From Phascolarctobacterium faecium DSM 14760 (GTDB taxonomy: Bacteria; Bacillota; Negativicutes; Acidaminococcales; Acidaminococcaceae), in assembly GCF_003269275.1 (NCBI RefSeq), contig NZ_QLTS01000001.1, forward strand, positions 372,001 to 436,000: 64,000 bases of DNA, read 5' to 3'. The number at the start of each line of letters is the position of its first letter. Within the stretch, counting starts at the first letter, position 1. The translations under genes and the position numbers were made by a program. The notes under the pieces were generated by a model. That model searched no databases, was not told the DNA's origin, and was given only the letters and a program-made list of their open reading frames with translations. This document shows positions 54,481-61,939 of the stretch, piece after piece.

Positions 54481-54514
54481 AATAACCCTCGCTTAAGCGA
54501 GGGTTATTTTTATT
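54481..54514. terminator. bidirectional terminator after the LptA-like gene
   Basis: AATAACCCTCGCTT pairs perfectly with AAGCGAGGGTTATT, followed by a T-run. It also touches the stop codon end of the PPDK regulatory protein gene on the other strand. Confidence 0.9.
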
Positions 54515-55332
54515 TAGCGGCGGTCTTTATTTTTCTGCACATACTCTAAGATCATACCTGCTGTTTCTTCGATCGCACGGTTAGATACATTGATAATAGT
54601 ACAATGCAGACGACGCATAATACCTTTTGCATATTCAAGCTCTTCATTAATCCGTTTAACATCAGCATAAGCGGCACCATCTGTCAGTCCCATAGTTTTC
54701 AAACGTTCGCTGCGGATCTCATTAAGTTTAAACGGATCAATAAGCAGGCCAATGATTTTATGCGGAGGAACTTTAAATAATTCTTCAGGAGGCATGATTT
54801 CCGGTACCAGCGGTACATTGGCAACTTTTATTTGTTTGTGTGCCAAGTACATGCTGAGCGGAGTTTTAGAAGTTCTTGAAACACCTATGATAACAACATC
54901 TGCTTTGGCCAGTCCCAAAGGATTTTTGCCATCATCATATTTAACAGCAAATTCTACGGCTTCGATACGTTTAAAGTATTCATGATCTAAAGCATGGATC
55001 AATCCGGCCTGGTTTTTAGGCAGCAGTCCGGAAGTTTTTTTAATAGCCTTAAGCATCGGTCCTAAAACATCAACAACCTCTACATCATGCTCCATTGCTT
55101 TATGCGCAATATGTTCACGCAATTCAGGTGAAACTACGGTATAACAGATAATACCATTATTTTCCTTAGCCTCTTCAATAACCTTTTCAACCTGCGCCTT
55201 ATCTTTAACATAAGGAACACGGATCACATCAAATTTTTCCTGTACAAATTGGCTGGTAGTAGCCTTTACAACAGACTCAGCGGTTTCACCAATAGAATCA
55301 GAAACTGCATAGATAATCGGTAATTTAGCTAT
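54514..55332 (-). CDS. pyruvate, phosphate dikinase regulatory protein (PSRP), apparent ATA start
   Basis: A bifunctional kinase/phosphorylase of the DUF299 family that switches PPDK or PEP synthase off and on. The P-loop-like GVSRTSKTPLSMYLAHK and KIIGLLIDPFKLNEIRSER are intact. The first in-frame GTG (55227) would cut off the conserved N-terminal YAVSDSIGETAESVVKA, which is plainly encoded upstream in the same frame. Between that segment and the upstream in-frame stop there is no ATG, GTG or TTG. The best start is ATA at 55332, 8 nt after GGAGG, giving 272 residues, the usual size. It overlaps the CcpN-like gene by 8 nt. Confidence 0.85.
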   Translation of the reverse strand: MAKLPIIYAVSDSIGETAESVVKATTSQFVQEKFDVIRVPYVKDKAQVEKVIEEAKENNGIICYTVVSPELREHIAHKAMEHDVEVVDVLGPMLKAIKKTSGLLPKNQAGLIHALDHEYFKRIEAVEFAVKYDDGKNPLGLAKADVVIIGVSRTSKTPLSMYLAHKQIKVANVPLVPEIMPPEELFKVPPHKIIGLLIDPFKLNEIRSERLKTMGLTDGAAYADVKRINEELEYAKGIMRRLHCTIINVSNRAIEETAGMILEYVQKNKDRR

Positions 55333-55987
55333 GATAATTGCCTCCTTTGCCCTCTGCCAGATCCACTAACAGACGGGTAAAATTCGTTTTAGTGATACGT
55401 CCCACTACTTCGTAACTGCGCTTATCCTCGCCCACACATCTAATAACAGGCAGACAATCAATCTCATTATCAATAATTTTACGTGCTGCCGAAGCTACAG
55501 AATCTTCCTGTTTGACTACAATAAGTTTAGACAGTGGTGTCATCACCATTACAACAGGAATTTCACGCAGATCGCTGCCATTATTGATAGCAGCTTTAAG
55601 CAAGTCTTTACGCGATACCACCCCTACCAAAAGACCAGCCTCATCAAGAACAAATACTGTCCCTACATCCTCCAGGAACATAGTTACAACAGCTTCATAG
55701 GCGCTTTTATCCTGATTGACTGCTACAGGCACAGACTGCAGATCACGTACAAGGATGCCGGAAATTTCTTCCATCAACATTCCCAGCGTATTCTTGCCGG
55801 TAAAATAATAACCAACTTTAGGACGCGCATCTAAAATACCGCCCATAACTAAAATCGCCAGATCTGATCGTAAAGCCGCACGAGTTACATTCAGACGTTC
55901 AGCAATATGTTCGCCCGTGATCGGCCCATCCTGGCGCACGATCTCGGCAATACGTTTTTGTCTGTTACTTAAAGAAATTGTCCTCAC
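55325..55987 (-). CDS. CcpN-like transcriptional regulator with HTH and CBS domains
   Basis: A 220-residue regulator. Residues 1-65 form a winged helix-turn-helix (NRQKRIAEIVRQDGPITGEH, IAERLNVTRAALRSDLAIL). Two CBS motifs follow (KSAYEAVVTMFLEDVGTVFV, LDEAGLLVGVVSRKDLL and VVKQEDSVASAARKIIDNE, IDCLPVIR), which in this family bind adenine nucleotides. CcpN of Bacillus represses gluconeogenic genes and is also next to the PPDK regulatory gene (yqfL), matching this arrangement. It probably senses energy state and acts on pyruvate/PEP genes. Its stop overlaps the PSRP start. Confidence 0.9.
   Translation of the reverse strand: MRTISLSNRQKRIAEIVRQDGPITGEHIAERLNVTRAALRSDLAILVMGGILDARPKVGYYFTGKNTLGMLMEEISGILVRDLQSVPVAVNQDKSAYEAVVTMFLEDVGTVFVLDEAGLLVGVVSRKDLLKAAINNGSDLREIPVVMVMTPLSKLIVVKQEDSVASAARKIIDNEIDCLPVIRCVGEDKRSYEVVGRITKTNFTRLLVDLAEGKGGNYHS
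55330..55345 (-). promoter_or_regulatory. ribosome-binding site and ATA start of the PSRP gene
   Basis: GGAGG (55345-55341), 8 nt (CAATTATC) and ATA (55332-55330), followed by GCT. The context GGAGG-N2-ATTATCATAGC is the same as at the atoD gene. The upstream gene's TAA lies at 55327-55325, so reinitiation by terminating ribosomes may help. Confidence 0.6.
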
Positions 55988-56132: not shown

Positions 56133-57653
56133 TCATAACTGCTCATGTTCCATTCTCTGGATCATAATACACAGCAGCAAAAAATAACGGTCTGTCATTT
56201 TAAAATAATTTTTTTGTGTTATTTCTTTGATTTTCCCCAACCGATAACGTAGAGTATTAATATGTATATGCTGTCTTTCAGCTGCATCCTCTAAACTGTT
56301 TTCCCGCAAAGCCGCTGAAAGTGTATCCAAAAGGCTCGATTGATAGCGTCTGTCATATTCCTGCAGTTTATCAAGCACCGTCGTCTTAATAAAATTATAC
56401 TCCGAAGTATTGCGGCAGTGCATCAGCAAACTGAACGGCAGCCATTCTTCAGCCTTACGTACTCCTGAAATATGCAATTTATATAAAAGTCTGATAACGT
56501 TTACCGACATCTCATAATGCTCTTTAATTCGCTCCAGTTCTGTAAATTCAGGAGATATTACAGCTGCAGCTATTTTATTCTGTTCCTTATTATATTTTTT
56601 GAATATATTAATGCTCGTAAGAGCTTCTTTACTGCTGCATAACAAGATATAAAATTTTTCCTCTTCAATTAAAAATCTATCAATCAAATAATTGCTTATA
56701 TTATGGCTTCCTTTAGAAAATAAAATCAAATTATATGCTTTTTGCTGCACAAATCCCAGATTAGCAAGCTTTTCAGCAATAACTTCTCCACTTTTGATTT
56801 CACCATTTTTTATTTCTTTCCAAAAACGTTCCACTGTTTTCTGCAGCGTTTCATAATGGTCCCACAGCTTGATGGCTAAAAAAGAAGCTCCCTGTTGCCC
56901 AATCAACCGTTCTTTTTCCGTTAACTGCCCCTCAGCAACAATAATAAACCTCCCAATAAGCTGACTACGGGCATAGCATTCGAAAATATGCAGCTCATTG
57001 ATAAAAAAGCCCGCATCAGTATATATTCTTTCATTAAAACCAGTTTTAATTTTTTCTGTCCAATCAAGAAAATCCTGTTTACGAGTACCTCGTCTGCTCC
57101 AGGAAGCAAGTATCTTCCCTTCATGATTCAGGCAAAAACAATTCTTGTGAAGCTGATTTCCCAAAACATTCACCAGCGAAGCCAGATCATCTGAATTCAG
57201 TGAAGTATGAATAAGTTTTTGATAGTTTTTTTCTACTTCAATCAACATATTGGTTTGATAATTCTGGATTTCAGAAGTGATTGTCTGCACCAGTTCTCTA
57301 AACTTGACTGCAGTTTTCACTTCAAATACCGGCAGCCGGTACTGATCTGCCAACTGCAGTATTTTCAGCGGGATCTTATTGATAAAACGGCCTGTTTTGA
57401 TACCTATCGCTGATATTCGCGGAGCAAGCTTTTTAAAACCATCTTCCTGCAGGTCAGGACTTTTACTGAAGGCATACCAGGTAGTTAAAACAAACTCACC
57501 TCCTGTTACCCATTCGTGCAAATCAGGCCCTTCCATAATTGTTACATGTGTTATCTGATTGTTTAAGTTCCCATGCTTATTAACCAATGTCACACGTTCG
57601 GCAAAATCTTTGATTTCCAATAATTCATTTAAGGTCACCATTTTCTTGGACAT
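56133..57653 (-). CDS. PucR-family transcriptional regulator
   Basis: A 506-residue regulator. The N-terminal PucR domain (about 1-125) has VTLNELLEIKDFAERVTLVN, VTIMEGPDLHEWVTGGEFVL and PRISAIGIKTGRFINKIPLK. A long middle region is GAF- or GGDEF-like. The C-terminal HTH_30 reads LLDTLSAALRENSLEDAAER and HIHINTLRYRLGKIKEIT. PucR proteins are ligand-responsive, often for purines or small acids. It is convergent in orientation with, and directly downstream of, the ato operon, so it plausibly controls it, although nothing in the sequence proves this. Confidence 0.85.
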   Translation of the reverse strand: MSKKMVTLNELLEIKDFAERVTLVNKHGNLNNQITHVTIMEGPDLHEWVTGGEFVLTTWYAFSKSPDLQEDGFKKLAPRISAIGIKTGRFINKIPLKILQLADQYRLPVFEVKTAVKFRELVQTITSEIQNYQTNMLIEVEKNYQKLIHTSLNSDDLASLVNVLGNQLHKNCFCLNHEGKILASWSRRGTRKQDFLDWTEKIKTGFNERIYTDAGFFINELHIFECYARSQLIGRFIIVAEGQLTEKERLIGQQGASFLAIKLWDHYETLQKTVERFWKEIKNGEIKSGEVIAEKLANLGFVQQKAYNLILFSKGSHNISNYLIDRFLIEEEKFYILLCSSKEALTSINIFKKYNKEQNKIAAAVISPEFTELERIKEHYEMSVNVIRLLYKLHISGVRKAEEWLPFSLLMHCRNTSEYNFIKTTVLDKLQEYDRRYQSSLLDTLSAALRENSLEDAAERQHIHINTLRYRLGKIKEITQKNYFKMTDRYFLLLCIMIQRMEHEQL

Positions 57654-57899: not shown

Positions 57900-59219
57900 T
57901 CACATAAAACTAAGTATTACAAAAGTTCCACTGATGATAACGCCGGAAACAATTGTCCAAATAACGCAATATCCCATAATATCACGCGCCGATAATCCCG
58001 CAACTCCTAAAAGCGGCAATGCCCAAAACGGTTGAATCTGATTAGTCCAGCCATCTCCCCAAGCAAAAGCCATAATTGTCTGCGGAATGTTCGCCCCCAA
58101 TGCCTCAGCAGCCTTCATCATGATTGGTCCCTGGATAGCCCATTGCCCGCCTCCGGAAGGAATAAAAATATTTACCAGCCCTGCCGATAAAAATGTATAA
58201 AGAGGGAAGGTATGTGCTGTAGAAATTTCCACAAACCACATGGAAATCATATCAACCAGACCAGAAGCAGTCATCATCCCCGACATACCAGCATAAAGCG
58301 GAAATTGCAAAATAATACCGCGGCTGGCACCGATTCCCTGTGCCACAGCCTTTAAAAAGCCGTTAGGACTGCTGTGCAGATATAAACCCAATGTTAAAAA
58401 AATCAAAATGACCAAATTCAAATTCAGGTCAAAACCAATCTTAGAAAAATTAGCTCCCAGATAAATCAATGGGAACAAACCAAACAAAGCGTTGAGCCAA
58501 TAAGCATTTTCCAATCTTTCGGCAAATGTCATATCTTTTTTAGCAATTCTTATATCTGGTTTTTCTTGTTCTTTTTCACTGTATTCCACTATTTCATTAG
58601 CAGGAGGTTTCATATTAAAATACACGATAAACAGCATAATTACGATGATAGCCGTCATTACCAGATTCCAGTAAGAATACAGCGTATCACCAACCGGTGT
58701 CAGTGGCAGTCCGAGCTTCTCCATAAAATTGCCTGGTGTTGCTGAAACAAGCGGAATCGAAGAAGACGGCCCGCGAATAATCTCACCGCCATAAGCCGCA
58801 GCTACCAACAGCGGAAAATGCAGGCCTTTAACCTTTTTGCCTACCTCTTTCGCAAGAACTGCACCTATAACAAGCCCAAATCCCCAGTTTATATAGCAAG
58901 ACGCAATAGATACTAATGCAGTCAACCCAAGAGCCTGCTGTGGAGTTTTAGGAATACCTGTTACCTTGTTCAAAATCTTTTTAGCCAAAGGTGTCAATGC
59001 CAGTACATAACCTGTCAATAAAACTAAAACCATCTGCATCCCAAAAACAAACATCGATGAGTACCCTCTGCCCCAATATTCTATCATTTGCAGAGCACTC
59101 TTGTTCATTAAAAACATTCCGCCGCAAAATACAACAAATGTTAAGAGAATAGCCAAAATAAAAGCATCCGGAAGATAATTCTGCACCATCTTCAGACAGA
59201 ACTTTGTTACAGTCTTCAT
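57900..59219 (-). CDS. atoE: short-chain fatty acid transporter AtoE
   Basis: About 439 residues from the ATG at 59219, which follows GGAGG. A longer frame to 59303 overlaps atoB and is unlikely. It has about 11-12 hydrophobic segments. It opens MKTVTKFCLKMVQNYLPDAF and has GRGYSSMFVFGMQMVLVLLT, SCYINWGFGLVIGAVLAKEV, PSSSIPLVSATPGNFM, FIPSGGGQWAIQGPIMMKAA and WGDGWTNQIQPFWALPLLG, all typical of AtoE. It would import acetoacetate, butyrate or similar acids. It is last in the atoD-atoA-atoB-atoE operon. Confidence 0.92.
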   Translation of the reverse strand: MKTVTKFCLKMVQNYLPDAFILAILLTFVVFCGGMFLMNKSALQMIEYWGRGYSSMFVFGMQMVLVLLTGYVLALTPLAKKILNKVTGIPKTPQQALGLTALVSIASCYINWGFGLVIGAVLAKEVGKKVKGLHFPLLVAAAYGGEIIRGPSSSIPLVSATPGNFMEKLGLPLTPVGDTLYSYWNLVMTAIIVIMLFIVYFNMKPPANEIVEYSEKEQEKPDIRIAKKDMTFAERLENAYWLNALFGLFPLIYLGANFSKIGFDLNLNLVILIFLTLGLYLHSSPNGFLKAVAQGIGASRGIILQFPLYAGMSGMMTASGLVDMISMWFVEISTAHTFPLYTFLSAGLVNIFIPSGGGQWAIQGPIMMKAAEALGANIPQTIMAFAWGDGWTNQIQPFWALPLLGVAGLSARDIMGYCVIWTIVSGVIISGTFVILSFM

Positions 59220-59254
59220 AAAAATCCGCCTCCTTTTCCCATTTTCTTTTTCAT

Positions 59255-60442
59255 TCACACCAGCTCTAAAACCGTAGCTGATCCTAGCCCTCCAGCAATA
59301 CATAAAGTAGCCAAGCCATATCTTACCTGTCTTTTCTGCATTTCATGCAATAAAGTTACTAAAATCCTTGCTCCAGAGCAACCAATCGGATGCCCCAGAG
59401 CAATTGCACCGCCATTTACATTGACCCTGGTCAGATCAATTTCCAGCTCCTGTATGACCGCTAATGATTGTGCTGCAAATGCTTCATTGATTTCTATCAG
59501 TCCAATATCTTCGATCCTTAGCCCTGCCCTTTTCAGTGCCAACCTTGTTGCAGGCACAGGCCCCATTCCCATATATGCCGGCGAAACACCTATTGAAGCC
59601 TGGCTGATTATTTTAGCCATAGGCTTTAACCCTGCCTTTGCAGCCGCACTTTCTTCAGCAATCAGCAACATGGCTCCACCGTCATTTCGTCCTGATGCAT
59701 TGCCTGCCGTTACGCTGCCGTCCTTTTTAAAAGCAGGCTTCAATTCTGCAAGTTTTTCTATCGTTGACAAACGTGGATGCTCATCAGCAGCAAACATCAA
59801 AATCTCTTTTTTCTTTTTTACTGGCAAAGGTTCAATCTCATCATCAAAGCGTCCGCTTTTTATTGCAGCCTGAGCTTTTTCCTGACTTTCGCAGGCAAAA
59901 TAATCTTGTGCCGTTCTGCTGATAACATATTTTTCAGCAATATTCTCTGCAGTCATACCCATTGTCAGGACTCCATACTGGTCAGCAGGCTGTGACCGTG
60001 GCTGACTTTCGGTATTAGGATCCAGCAAAATCCCGTTACCTACTGCATAACCCCTCCGTGCCTCTCTGAGATAATATTGGGCATTACTCATACTTTCGAT
60101 ACCACCAGCTAAAACGAAGTCAGCATAGCCGCACATAATCTCCTGTGCCGCATTCTGGACAGCCTGCATACCAGAACCACATTGTCTGTGTACTGTATAA
60201 GCCTGTACTTCAAGCGGAAATTTTGTCATCAATGCAGCTAATCTTGCAATATTAGGCTGGTCGCTGCTCTGCTTTGCCTGCCCTAAAATTACTGCATCCA
60301 GAAGTCTGATATCAAAATGACTACGTTCACATATTTTCTGCAACAAAAAGGCAGCAATTTCCTCCGGCTGTATGTCCTTCATTGCTCCGTTCAGTTTTCC
60401 TATAGGCGTCCTGATTCCATCTATGACTACCGGCTGCAGCAT
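59255..60442 (-). CDS. atoB: acetyl-CoA C-acetyltransferase (thiolase)
   Basis: A 395-residue thiolase. Active-site motifs are VHRQCGSGMQAVQNAAQEIM with the nucleophilic Cys, GGIESMSNAQYYLREAR, MGMTAENIAEKYVISR, EINEAFAAQSLAV, NVNGGAIALGHPIGCSGARI with the catalytic His, and the final CIAGGLGSATVLELV with the second Cys. It would cleave acetoacetyl-CoA to two acetyl-CoA, or condense them for butyrate formation. It lies 2 nt after atoA. GGGAGG precedes the ATG. Confidence 0.95.
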   Translation of the reverse strand: MLQPVVIDGIRTPIGKLNGAMKDIQPEEIAAFLLQKICERSHFDIRLLDAVILGQAKQSSDQPNIARLAALMTKFPLEVQAYTVHRQCGSGMQAVQNAAQEIMCGYADFVLAGGIESMSNAQYYLREARRGYAVGNGILLDPNTESQPRSQPADQYGVLTMGMTAENIAEKYVISRTAQDYFACESQEKAQAAIKSGRFDDEIEPLPVKKKKEILMFAADEHPRLSTIEKLAELKPAFKKDGSVTAGNASGRNDGGAMLLIAEESAAAKAGLKPMAKIISQASIGVSPAYMGMGPVPATRLALKRAGLRIEDIGLIEINEAFAAQSLAVIQELEIDLTRVNVNGGAIALGHPIGCSGARILVTLLHEMQKRQVRYGLATLCIAGGLGSATVLELV

Positions 60443-60444
60443 AT

Positions 60445-61119
60445 CTATACCTCCCTTATACTAATTTTTTCAGCCAGCTCATAATGAGCAGATGTCATTG
60501 CTGCAATTTCTTCCAATGTAACATCAGAAGTATGTTCCAGTAAAAACATCATTCCGTCCTTAAACTTAAATACAGCATATTCTGTGACTAAAGTATTAAC
60601 TACTTTCCGCCCAGTCAGCGGCACAGTACAATCCTTTACCAGTTTATGCCTGCCATTTTTTGCCGTATGAGATGTCGCAACGATCACCTCTTTTACTCCA
60701 ACGACCAGATCCATTGCTCCCCCTGGTCCTAAAACACCTTTGCCCGGCAAAGCCCAATTTGCCAGGTCTCCCGCTTCATTTATCTGTATGGCTCCGATAA
60801 CTGTAGCATCCATACGCCCACTTCTGATCATTGCAAAAGATGTAGCACTATCAAAATAACAGCATCCGGGCGTTTCAGTAACCGGTGTACGACTGGCATT
60901 AATGAGATTAGGAATTATTGCCTCCCCGCTAAGTTGTTTAGGCCCAACACCCAGCATTCCATTTTCCGTCTGAATGTAAATATGTTTATCTGCTGGTAAA
61001 TAATCAACCGCCATTGTGGGAATACCTACACCTAAATTGACAAAACCACCGTCAGGCAGCATTTCCGCAACTCTTTTAGCAATTCTTACTTTTGTTTCCG
61101 CTTCTGACATGTTTCTCAT
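60445..61119 (-). CDS. atoA: acetoacetate/3-oxoacid CoA-transferase subunit B
   Basis: A 224-residue CoA-transferase beta subunit. VAEMLPDGGFVNLGVGIPTM and the glutamate-containing IYIQTENGMLGVGP (the catalytic Glu that forms the CoA thioester is the ENG motif) are diagnostic. GAIQINEAGDLANWALPGK, GGAMDLVVGVKEVIV and VKDCTVPLTGRKVVNTLVTE also fit. With subunit A it would move CoA from acetyl- or succinyl-CoA to acetoacetate or butyrate. The start overlaps the atoD stop by ATGA. Confidence 0.95.
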   Translation of the reverse strand: MRNMSEAETKVRIAKRVAEMLPDGGFVNLGVGIPTMAVDYLPADKHIYIQTENGMLGVGPKQLSGEAIIPNLINASRTPVTETPGCCYFDSATSFAMIRSGRMDATVIGAIQINEAGDLANWALPGKGVLGPGGAMDLVVGVKEVIVATSHTAKNGRHKLVKDCTVPLTGRKVVNTLVTEYAVFKFKDGMMFLLEHTSDVTLEEIAAMTSAHYELAEKISIREV

Positions 61120-61781
61120 TTAACTGCACCCCGATTCTGCGGTACCAAAACATCCACATAAATATAAGGTGTTACAATCTCTTCCGGCGAAAGCATACCG
61201 GTTTCTACAATCTCATCAACCTCCACAATCGTCAAAGCGGCTGCTGTTGCCATAAGCGGATTAAAATTTCTTGCTGTTTTTTCATAAACTAAATTCCCCA
61301 TAGCATCCGCTTTTCTGGCATGTAACAAGGCTACGTCTGCTTTCAAAGGATACGCCAAAACATAGGCTTCGCCGTCAATAACTTTTGTTTCACAATGCGC
61401 AGTCAGCTCTGTGCCAGCTCCAACCTTTGTATAAAACCCGCCAATTCCGCAGCCTCCTGCACGGATACTTTCTGCAAATGTGCCCTGTGGCATCATCTCT
61501 AAATTTAACTTTCCATCAAAATATAATTCTGCAGCTTCAGTATTATAGGTAAAATAGGTACCTATAGCTTTTTTCAGCATCCTATTCCTTACCCACCTTC
61601 CCAAGCCTACATTAGGAGTACCAAGATCATTGGCAATAACAGTCAAATCATGTATGTCTGTATCTGCCAGTAAATCAATCAGCCTCTTTGGATTACCGAC
61701 ATTTCCAAAACCTCCGATCATAACAACATCACCTGACCTGACAAGCTTAACAGCTTCCACAGCTTCTACAATCTTTGCTAT
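61116..61781 (-). CDS. atoD: acetoacetate/3-oxoacid CoA-transferase subunit A, apparent ATA start
   Basis: A protein of 221 residues if translation starts at ATA (61781), the size usual for the alpha subunit. MAKIVEAVEAVKLVRSGD, VMIGGFGNVGNPKRLIDLLA, VIANDLGTPNVGLGRWVRN, YFDGKLNLEMMPQGTFAESI, RAGGCGIGGFYTKVGAGTEL and KADAMGNLVYEKTARNFNP are family motifs. GGAGGTGAT, an almost ideal Shine-Dalgarno, lies 8 nt before ATA. In-frame ATG (61796) and GTG exist upstream but lie on or before this ribosome-binding site. It leads the atoD-atoA-atoB-atoE operon. Confidence 0.88.
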   Translation of the reverse strand: MAKIVEAVEAVKLVRSGDVVMIGGFGNVGNPKRLIDLLADTDIHDLTVIANDLGTPNVGLGRWVRNRMLKKAIGTYFTYNTEAAELYFDGKLNLEMMPQGTFAESIRAGGCGIGGFYTKVGAGTELTAHCETKVIDGEAYVLAYPLKADVALLHARKADAMGNLVYEKTARNFNPLMATAAALTIVEVDEIVETGMLSPEEIVTPYIYVDVLVPQNRGAVK

Positions 61782-61794
61782 GATAATCACCTCC
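61779..61794 (-). promoter_or_regulatory. ribosome-binding site and ATA start of atoD
   Basis: GGAGG (61794-61790), 8 nt (TGATTATC) and ATA (61781-61779), then GCA AAG. Spacing and the ATTATCATAGC core are the same as at the PSRP gene. Confidence 0.6.
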
Positions 61795-61893
61795 ATATTT
61801 AGTTCTTTGATTTCAGTATACAAAGCTAAAGACGAGCCTAATATGTAGAAACCTACAAAAATAATCTGATTTTTTTGCATTTTTGCACAAAAA

Positions 61894-61931
61894 TAGCCCT
61901 TATAACAGTTAGATAACTGTTATAAGGGCTA
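61894..61931 (-). terminator. second, tandem terminator after yqeY
   Basis: An exact 17-bp inverted repeat (AGCCCTTATAACAGTTA and its complement) with a GA centre, extended by one T-A pair. It is followed on the minus strand by TTTTTG, and lies 30 nt downstream of another hairpin and about 110 nt upstream of atoD. Confidence 0.75.
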
Positions 61932-61939
61932 TAAAAAAT

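Follow-up and report, generated by a model that had tools for sequence, protein, structure and literature searches.

A probable AUA start codon at atoD and a recurrent, lineage-wide class of AUU/AUA starts in Phascolarctobacterium faecium

Introduction

Does the atoD gene of Phascolarctobacterium faecium DSM 14760 start at an AUA codon, and if so, is this start an isolated accident or one of a set? Starts at AUA, AUU or AUC (AUH) are an already known kind, represented by infC and pcnB and by infC, ccpN, citZ and cvfC1 of Staphylococcus aureus. In Escherichia coli, AUU starts are known at two genes, infC (IF3 autoregulation) and pcnB. The autoregulation of E. coli infC is cited in a study of S. 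aureus, in which AUA starts at infC, ccpN and citZ and an AUU start at cvfC1, with extended Shine-Dalgarno sequences (SDs), were mapped by ribosome profiling (PMC13009471). In poor medium, reporters for cvfC1, ccpN and citZ were expressed at about 10% of the AUG level; in rich medium, the ccpN reporter reached as much as 30% (PMC13009471). Furthermore, a Streptomyces report describes a GTC start of sigR that is repressed by IF3 (PMC5472188).

The window analysed here is a stretch of 64 kb, to which all coordinates refer except those marked C1. In this window, the first-pass annotation had pointed to ATA starts in a near-identical context at atoD and at ppsR, the gene for a PSRP-type regulator, and had read them as a recurrent, perhaps regulated or lineage-specific, start signal rather than as two errors.

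Results

The gene atoD occupies 61116..61781 on the minus strand and encodes subunit A of 3-oxoacid CoA-transferase, with 221 aa plus stop (TIGR02429, 227.5 bits against a cut-off of 128.5; PF01144). On that strand, the start region reads ...AAAT ATG GAG GTG ATT ATC ATA GCA AAG ATT GTA GAA.... An extended SD, GGAGGTGAT (61786..61794, minus strand), read from the sequence and SD-scored, precedes the proposed start codon ATA (61779..61781, minus strand), from which GGAGG is separated by 8 nt. This spacing, already noted in the first-pass annotation for the ATA at 61781, is confirmed by the sequence and lies within the modal range of the genome. SD-led canonical starts peak at 7–8 nt (66 and 56 of 234) in a 464-kb sample comprising the window and 400 kb of adjacent stretches (20% of the genome, the rest being covered by pattern search only). 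The SD scorer assigned 10.7 to ATA and 9.95 to ATC, and at most 4.5 to every other canonical or AUH codon at the locus. Folding of the atoD leader RNA was unremarkable (z −0.13).

A rival reading would place the start at the in-frame ATG at 61794..61796 (minus strand; MEVIIIAKIVEA...) and make GGAGGTGAT a coincidental piece of coding sequence. This ATG is a canonical codon in the reading frame, and no stop intervenes before atoD; it sits on the SD, however, has none of its own upstream and scores low. A protein starting there would carry five extra residues that are not in the homologues, the ATG is missing in the G013 homologue, and the presence of a 9-nt SD at the modal distance from the homologous start would need to be put down to chance; such a start is considered quite unlikely. 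The GTG at 61790 likewise overlaps GGAGGTGAT, so that the earlier statement that the upstream in-frame ATG and GTG lie on the SD is correct for both codons.

Homologues of atoD were found in only 3 of 59 family genomes. Those aligning to residue 1 carry a canonical codon in the ATA column, namely GTG in G013 and in G037 and ATG in both copies of G038; the G013 homologue is 74% identical, and its GTG is preceded by GAGGAGGTGGTTGTT. The ATA is thus located at the usual family start, as had been proposed. When the same SD procedure was applied to atoD homologues, canonical starts were called in 25 of 28, providing a negative control for the AUH calls.

The alignment also bears on AUC at 61784, which would still be an AUH start. 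This codon lies 5 nt from GGAGG and scores nearly as high as ATA; a protein with one more residue is what E. coli-type profiles suggest, and the alignment with some family profiles likewise extends one residue beyond atoD from ATA. However, ATA is favoured because SD spacing in this genome peaks at 7–8 nt rather than 5 nt. In addition, the nearest homologue, that of G013, has GTT in the ATC column and GTG in the ATA column, and at ppsR it is ATA, not ATC, that is substituted by ATG, so initiation at AUC appears very unlikely. Three features of AUH-initiated genes are found at atoD: the strong, extended GGAGGTGAT stands at the proper spacing of 8 nt, the competing canonical codons ATG 61796 and GTG 61790 lie on the SD, and an AUH codon occupies the homologous start position, aligned with GTG or ATG in homologues. 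As judged from its sequence, atoD probably starts at AUA.

Downstream, atoD is followed on the minus strand by atoA (CoA-transferase subunit B, 60445..61119; TIGR02428 above cut-off), a thiolase gene (acetyl-CoA C-acyltransferase, 59255..60442; TIGR01930 above cut-off) and a gene for an AtoE-like short-chain fatty acid transporter (57900..59303; TIGR00366, E 2.8e-134, below the curated cut-off), which together form the ato operon. The ATG of atoA overlaps the atoD stop codon (ATGA), and coupling between atoD and atoA is therefore likely.

The atoD ATA is known from one genome and one assembly, the genus being represented by a single genome, and the only close relative has GTG. This distribution would suit a reading in which ATA arose from GTG or ATG through a recent, mildly deleterious mutation or an assembly error and has no regulatory meaning, with only the other AUH genes forming a selected set; the AUA of S. 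aureus citZ is likewise confined to one lineage (PMC13009471). Against it, atoD has an SD of unusual strength, like the conserved AUH genes, both it and its operon are intact, and the assembly, of only 21 contigs, has a completeness rating of 100%. Such an origin is a less likely but appreciable possibility, and a genuine AUA start remains the preferred reading of atoD.

For ppsR, the case for AUA is, on sequence grounds, much stronger than for atoD. This gene (54514..55332, minus strand) encodes a pyruvate phosphate dikinase / PEP synthase regulator (NF003742, 337.8 bits against a cut-off of 225; PF03618). Its start site reads GGAGGCAATTATCATAGCT, with ATA at 55330..55332 (minus strand) and the SD AAAGGAGG at 55341..55348 (minus strand), inside the 3' end of ccpN. 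No ATG, GTG or TTG occurs between the upstream in-frame stop and this ATA in the source genome. Gene finders restricted to these three codons misplace or truncate AUH starts, and would call ppsR from a GTG 35 codons inside the gene.

The ppsR ATA is conserved across the family, being found in the majority of some 51 distinct sites; the family is identified as Acidaminococcaceae from its named loci (Phascolarctobacterium, Acidaminococcus, Succiniclasticum and further genera). Two loci have ATG at exactly the ATA position and one has ATC in that place; in five others the ATA is lost and a nearby canonical start is present instead (GTG in one, TTG in two, ATG in two). In other Bacillota, AUA, AUU or AUC was the best-scored start of ppsR in 27 of 62 cases with the SD scorer. 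Examples include Sporomusa malonica, with ATA where S. acidovorans has ATG, as well as Pectinatus frisingensis, Desulfofundulus and Tepidibacillus.

Since the ppsR start overlaps the ccpN stop, the ATA bases might have been kept for CcpN instead. This is argued against because the CcpN residue after His in the overlap varies (S, T, K, N or R) while its codon stays A-first wherever ppsR has ATA. Where Ser is encoded, the codon is always AGY and never TCN; it is codons beginning with G (GGC, GAC) that give ppsR an ATG.

The overlapping ccpN gene, for a transcriptional regulator (55325..55978, minus strand; NF053704, 280.5 bits against a cut-off of 260), itself has a proposed ATT start (55976..55978, minus strand), from which residue 1 matches profile position 1, so that the adjacent ccpN and ppsR are both AUH genes. 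This ATT lies three codons after the usually called GTG at 55987, which is in frame but sits within the SD. The aligned column holds ATT, ATC or ATA, or else ATG, GTG or TTG, in relatives, with ATT in 17, ATA in 12, ATG in 6 and TTG in 2 within the family. According to the SD scorer, an AUH codon was best in 27 of 35 family members and in 39 of 61 other Bacillota.

Similar starts were found outside the window. In the source genome, infC starts with ATT behind TGGAGGTGA, and AUH was best-scored in all 28 relatives, whose context is often very like that of atoD (TGGAGGTGAATTGTCATAGCA); at many infC loci the SD contains an in-frame TGA immediately ahead of the AUH codon. The 464-kb scan for an SD plus ATH added two further cases. 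One is rny, encoding RNase Y (C1:152977, minus strand), with ATT behind AAGGAGGTGA and AUH best-scored in each of 30 relatives across Negativicutes, one of these calls being weak. The other is an LPG_synthase_C gene (PF09924; C1:39958, plus strand), with an ATT start and AUH best-scored in 26 of 30 relatives; the ATT is retained in relatives, and a distant one has ATG instead. At ppsR, ccpN, infC, rny and the LPG_synthase_C gene, AUH occupies the homologous start position and is conserved lineage-wide in relatives.

The genome therefore holds at least six AUA/AUU-start genes, namely infC, ccpN, ppsR, rny, the LPG_synthase_C gene and atoD; ccpN, ppsR and atoD lie inside the 64-kb window. A very large number of AUH starts was rejected: genome-wide, GGAGGTN{4,8}ATH gave 152 matches against 149 for the reversed control, and, as there is no excess, AUH starts are a small minority. 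The scan also yielded a HemW-like ORF at C1:445446 and ORFs at C1:313566 and C1:79544, which were discarded as coding coincidences, the latter two with ATG nearby. With regard to the reading proposed at the outset, recurrence at the level of the lineage, as opposed to two errors, holds because the ppsR AUA is conserved family-wide, recurring in other Bacillota, and at least four further AUU/AUA starts exist in the genome; the lineage-level claim does not extend to the atoD AUA, for which a single genome is the source.

The near-identity of the atoD and ppsR contexts fared less well as a signal. Within the window, GGAGGNNATTATCATAGC with up to 2 mismatches occurs at exactly 2 sites, atoD and ppsR, against 0.09 expected, which could suggest a 16-nt recruitment motif, GGAGG-N2-ATTATCATAGC, common to these genes and specific for them. 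However, the genome-wide search for GGAGG, a spacer and ATAGC that the first-pass annotation had proposed (GGAGGN{5,10}ATAGC) returned 7 matches against 14 for the reversed control, and ATTATCATAGC is carried by only the two known sites among these 7. The motif is thus found twice in 2.3 Mb, its looser forms are rarer than the control, ppsR relatives differ around the AUA, and infC, rny and the LPG_synthase_C gene lack it. At ppsR, moreover, the shared context is in part the 3' end of the overlapping ccpN. A dedicated 16-nt signal is accordingly rejected as highly improbable; what the sites have in common is their overall arrangement, in which an AUH codon stands about 8 nt from a strong extended SD, as at infC.

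The first-pass annotation had also raised an unusual IF3 or CAT-anticodon tRNA set. On inspection, IF3 of the source genome reads as an ordinary IF3. The window holds one CAT tRNA; the remaining 400 kb of the 20% genome sample holds none.

Discussion

Altogether, the AUH class is real, recurrent and lineage-wide, and points to deliberate low-level, possibly IF3-sensed, translation of these genes and not to sequencing errors. It is likely that atoD belongs to this AUU/AUA set, together with infC, ccpN, ppsR, rny and the LPG_synthase_C gene, and is initiated at AUA 61781 by formyl-Met tRNA via its extended SD, with initiation predicted to be weak and IF3-sensitive. In such a mechanism, the near-perfect extended SD would guide the initiator tRNA and position the start codon, and the third-base mismatch would keep initiation weak. 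IF3 would reject AUH codons, as at E. coli infC, so that output would be low except when IF3 is limiting. Since the start codon of atoA falls within the atoD stop (ATGA), weak initiation at atoD would limit both subunits of the CoA-transferase, and the atoD start probably sets the output of the pair. Re-initiation may contribute at ppsR through its overlap with the ccpN stop (ATAGCTAA); atoD, as the first gene of its operon, would have only its SD to rely on. We infer initiation at AUA in cells, its low efficiency, its dependence on IF3 and any advantage that it may confer at atoD.

The proposed set resembles E. coli infC and pcnB in combining AUH starts with IF3 discrimination, which is predicted here, and infC has an AUU start in the source genome too; in E. 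coli two AUH genes are known, against at least six here. The S. aureus set likewise combines extended SDs with AUA or AUU, and ccpN and infC belong to both; citZ, a metabolic enzyme gene with a lineage-restricted AUA, parallels atoD (PMC13009471). Those starts were mapped experimentally; the present set comes from sequence analysis. RNase Y, pyruvate or phosphate dikinase and yqfL are not mentioned in that paper, and ppsR and rny are not discussed there (PMC13009471). In Streptomyces, sigR shows a likeness in its rare start and the IF3-based repression of a regulator, but differs in that the codon is GTC, not AUH, and the organism an actinobacterium (PMC5472188). A non-exhaustive literature search for AUU at RNase Y or for the ppsR start returned nothing relevant; within that search, the known AUH kind appears to gain four undescribed members in ppsR, rny, atoD and the LPG_synthase_C gene.

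Where AUH starts are conserved, they make translational throttling visible, and the set offers a concrete candidate IF3 regulon that links IF3, RNase Y and the ccpN-ppsR metabolic switch, with atoD extending it to a catabolic operon. Tentatively, Acidaminococcaceae and Bacillota may hold an unrecognised, IF3-sensed set of conserved AUH genes covering IF3, RNase Y, the ccpN-ppsR gluconeogenesis switch, a lipid-modification-like enzyme and, here, the ato operon, through which the supply of an initiation factor could co-tune mRNA turnover with pyruvate, PEP and acyl-CoA metabolism.

Two further elements flank the ato operon. Directly downstream (56133-57653, minus strand) lies a gene for a PucR-type regulator, a candidate regulator of the operon. 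A perfect inverted repeat of 19 nt with a T-run after it (61893-61932, minus strand) lies in the interval from the yqeY terminator to the atoD leader and can be read as a candidate tandem terminator or regulatory hairpin.
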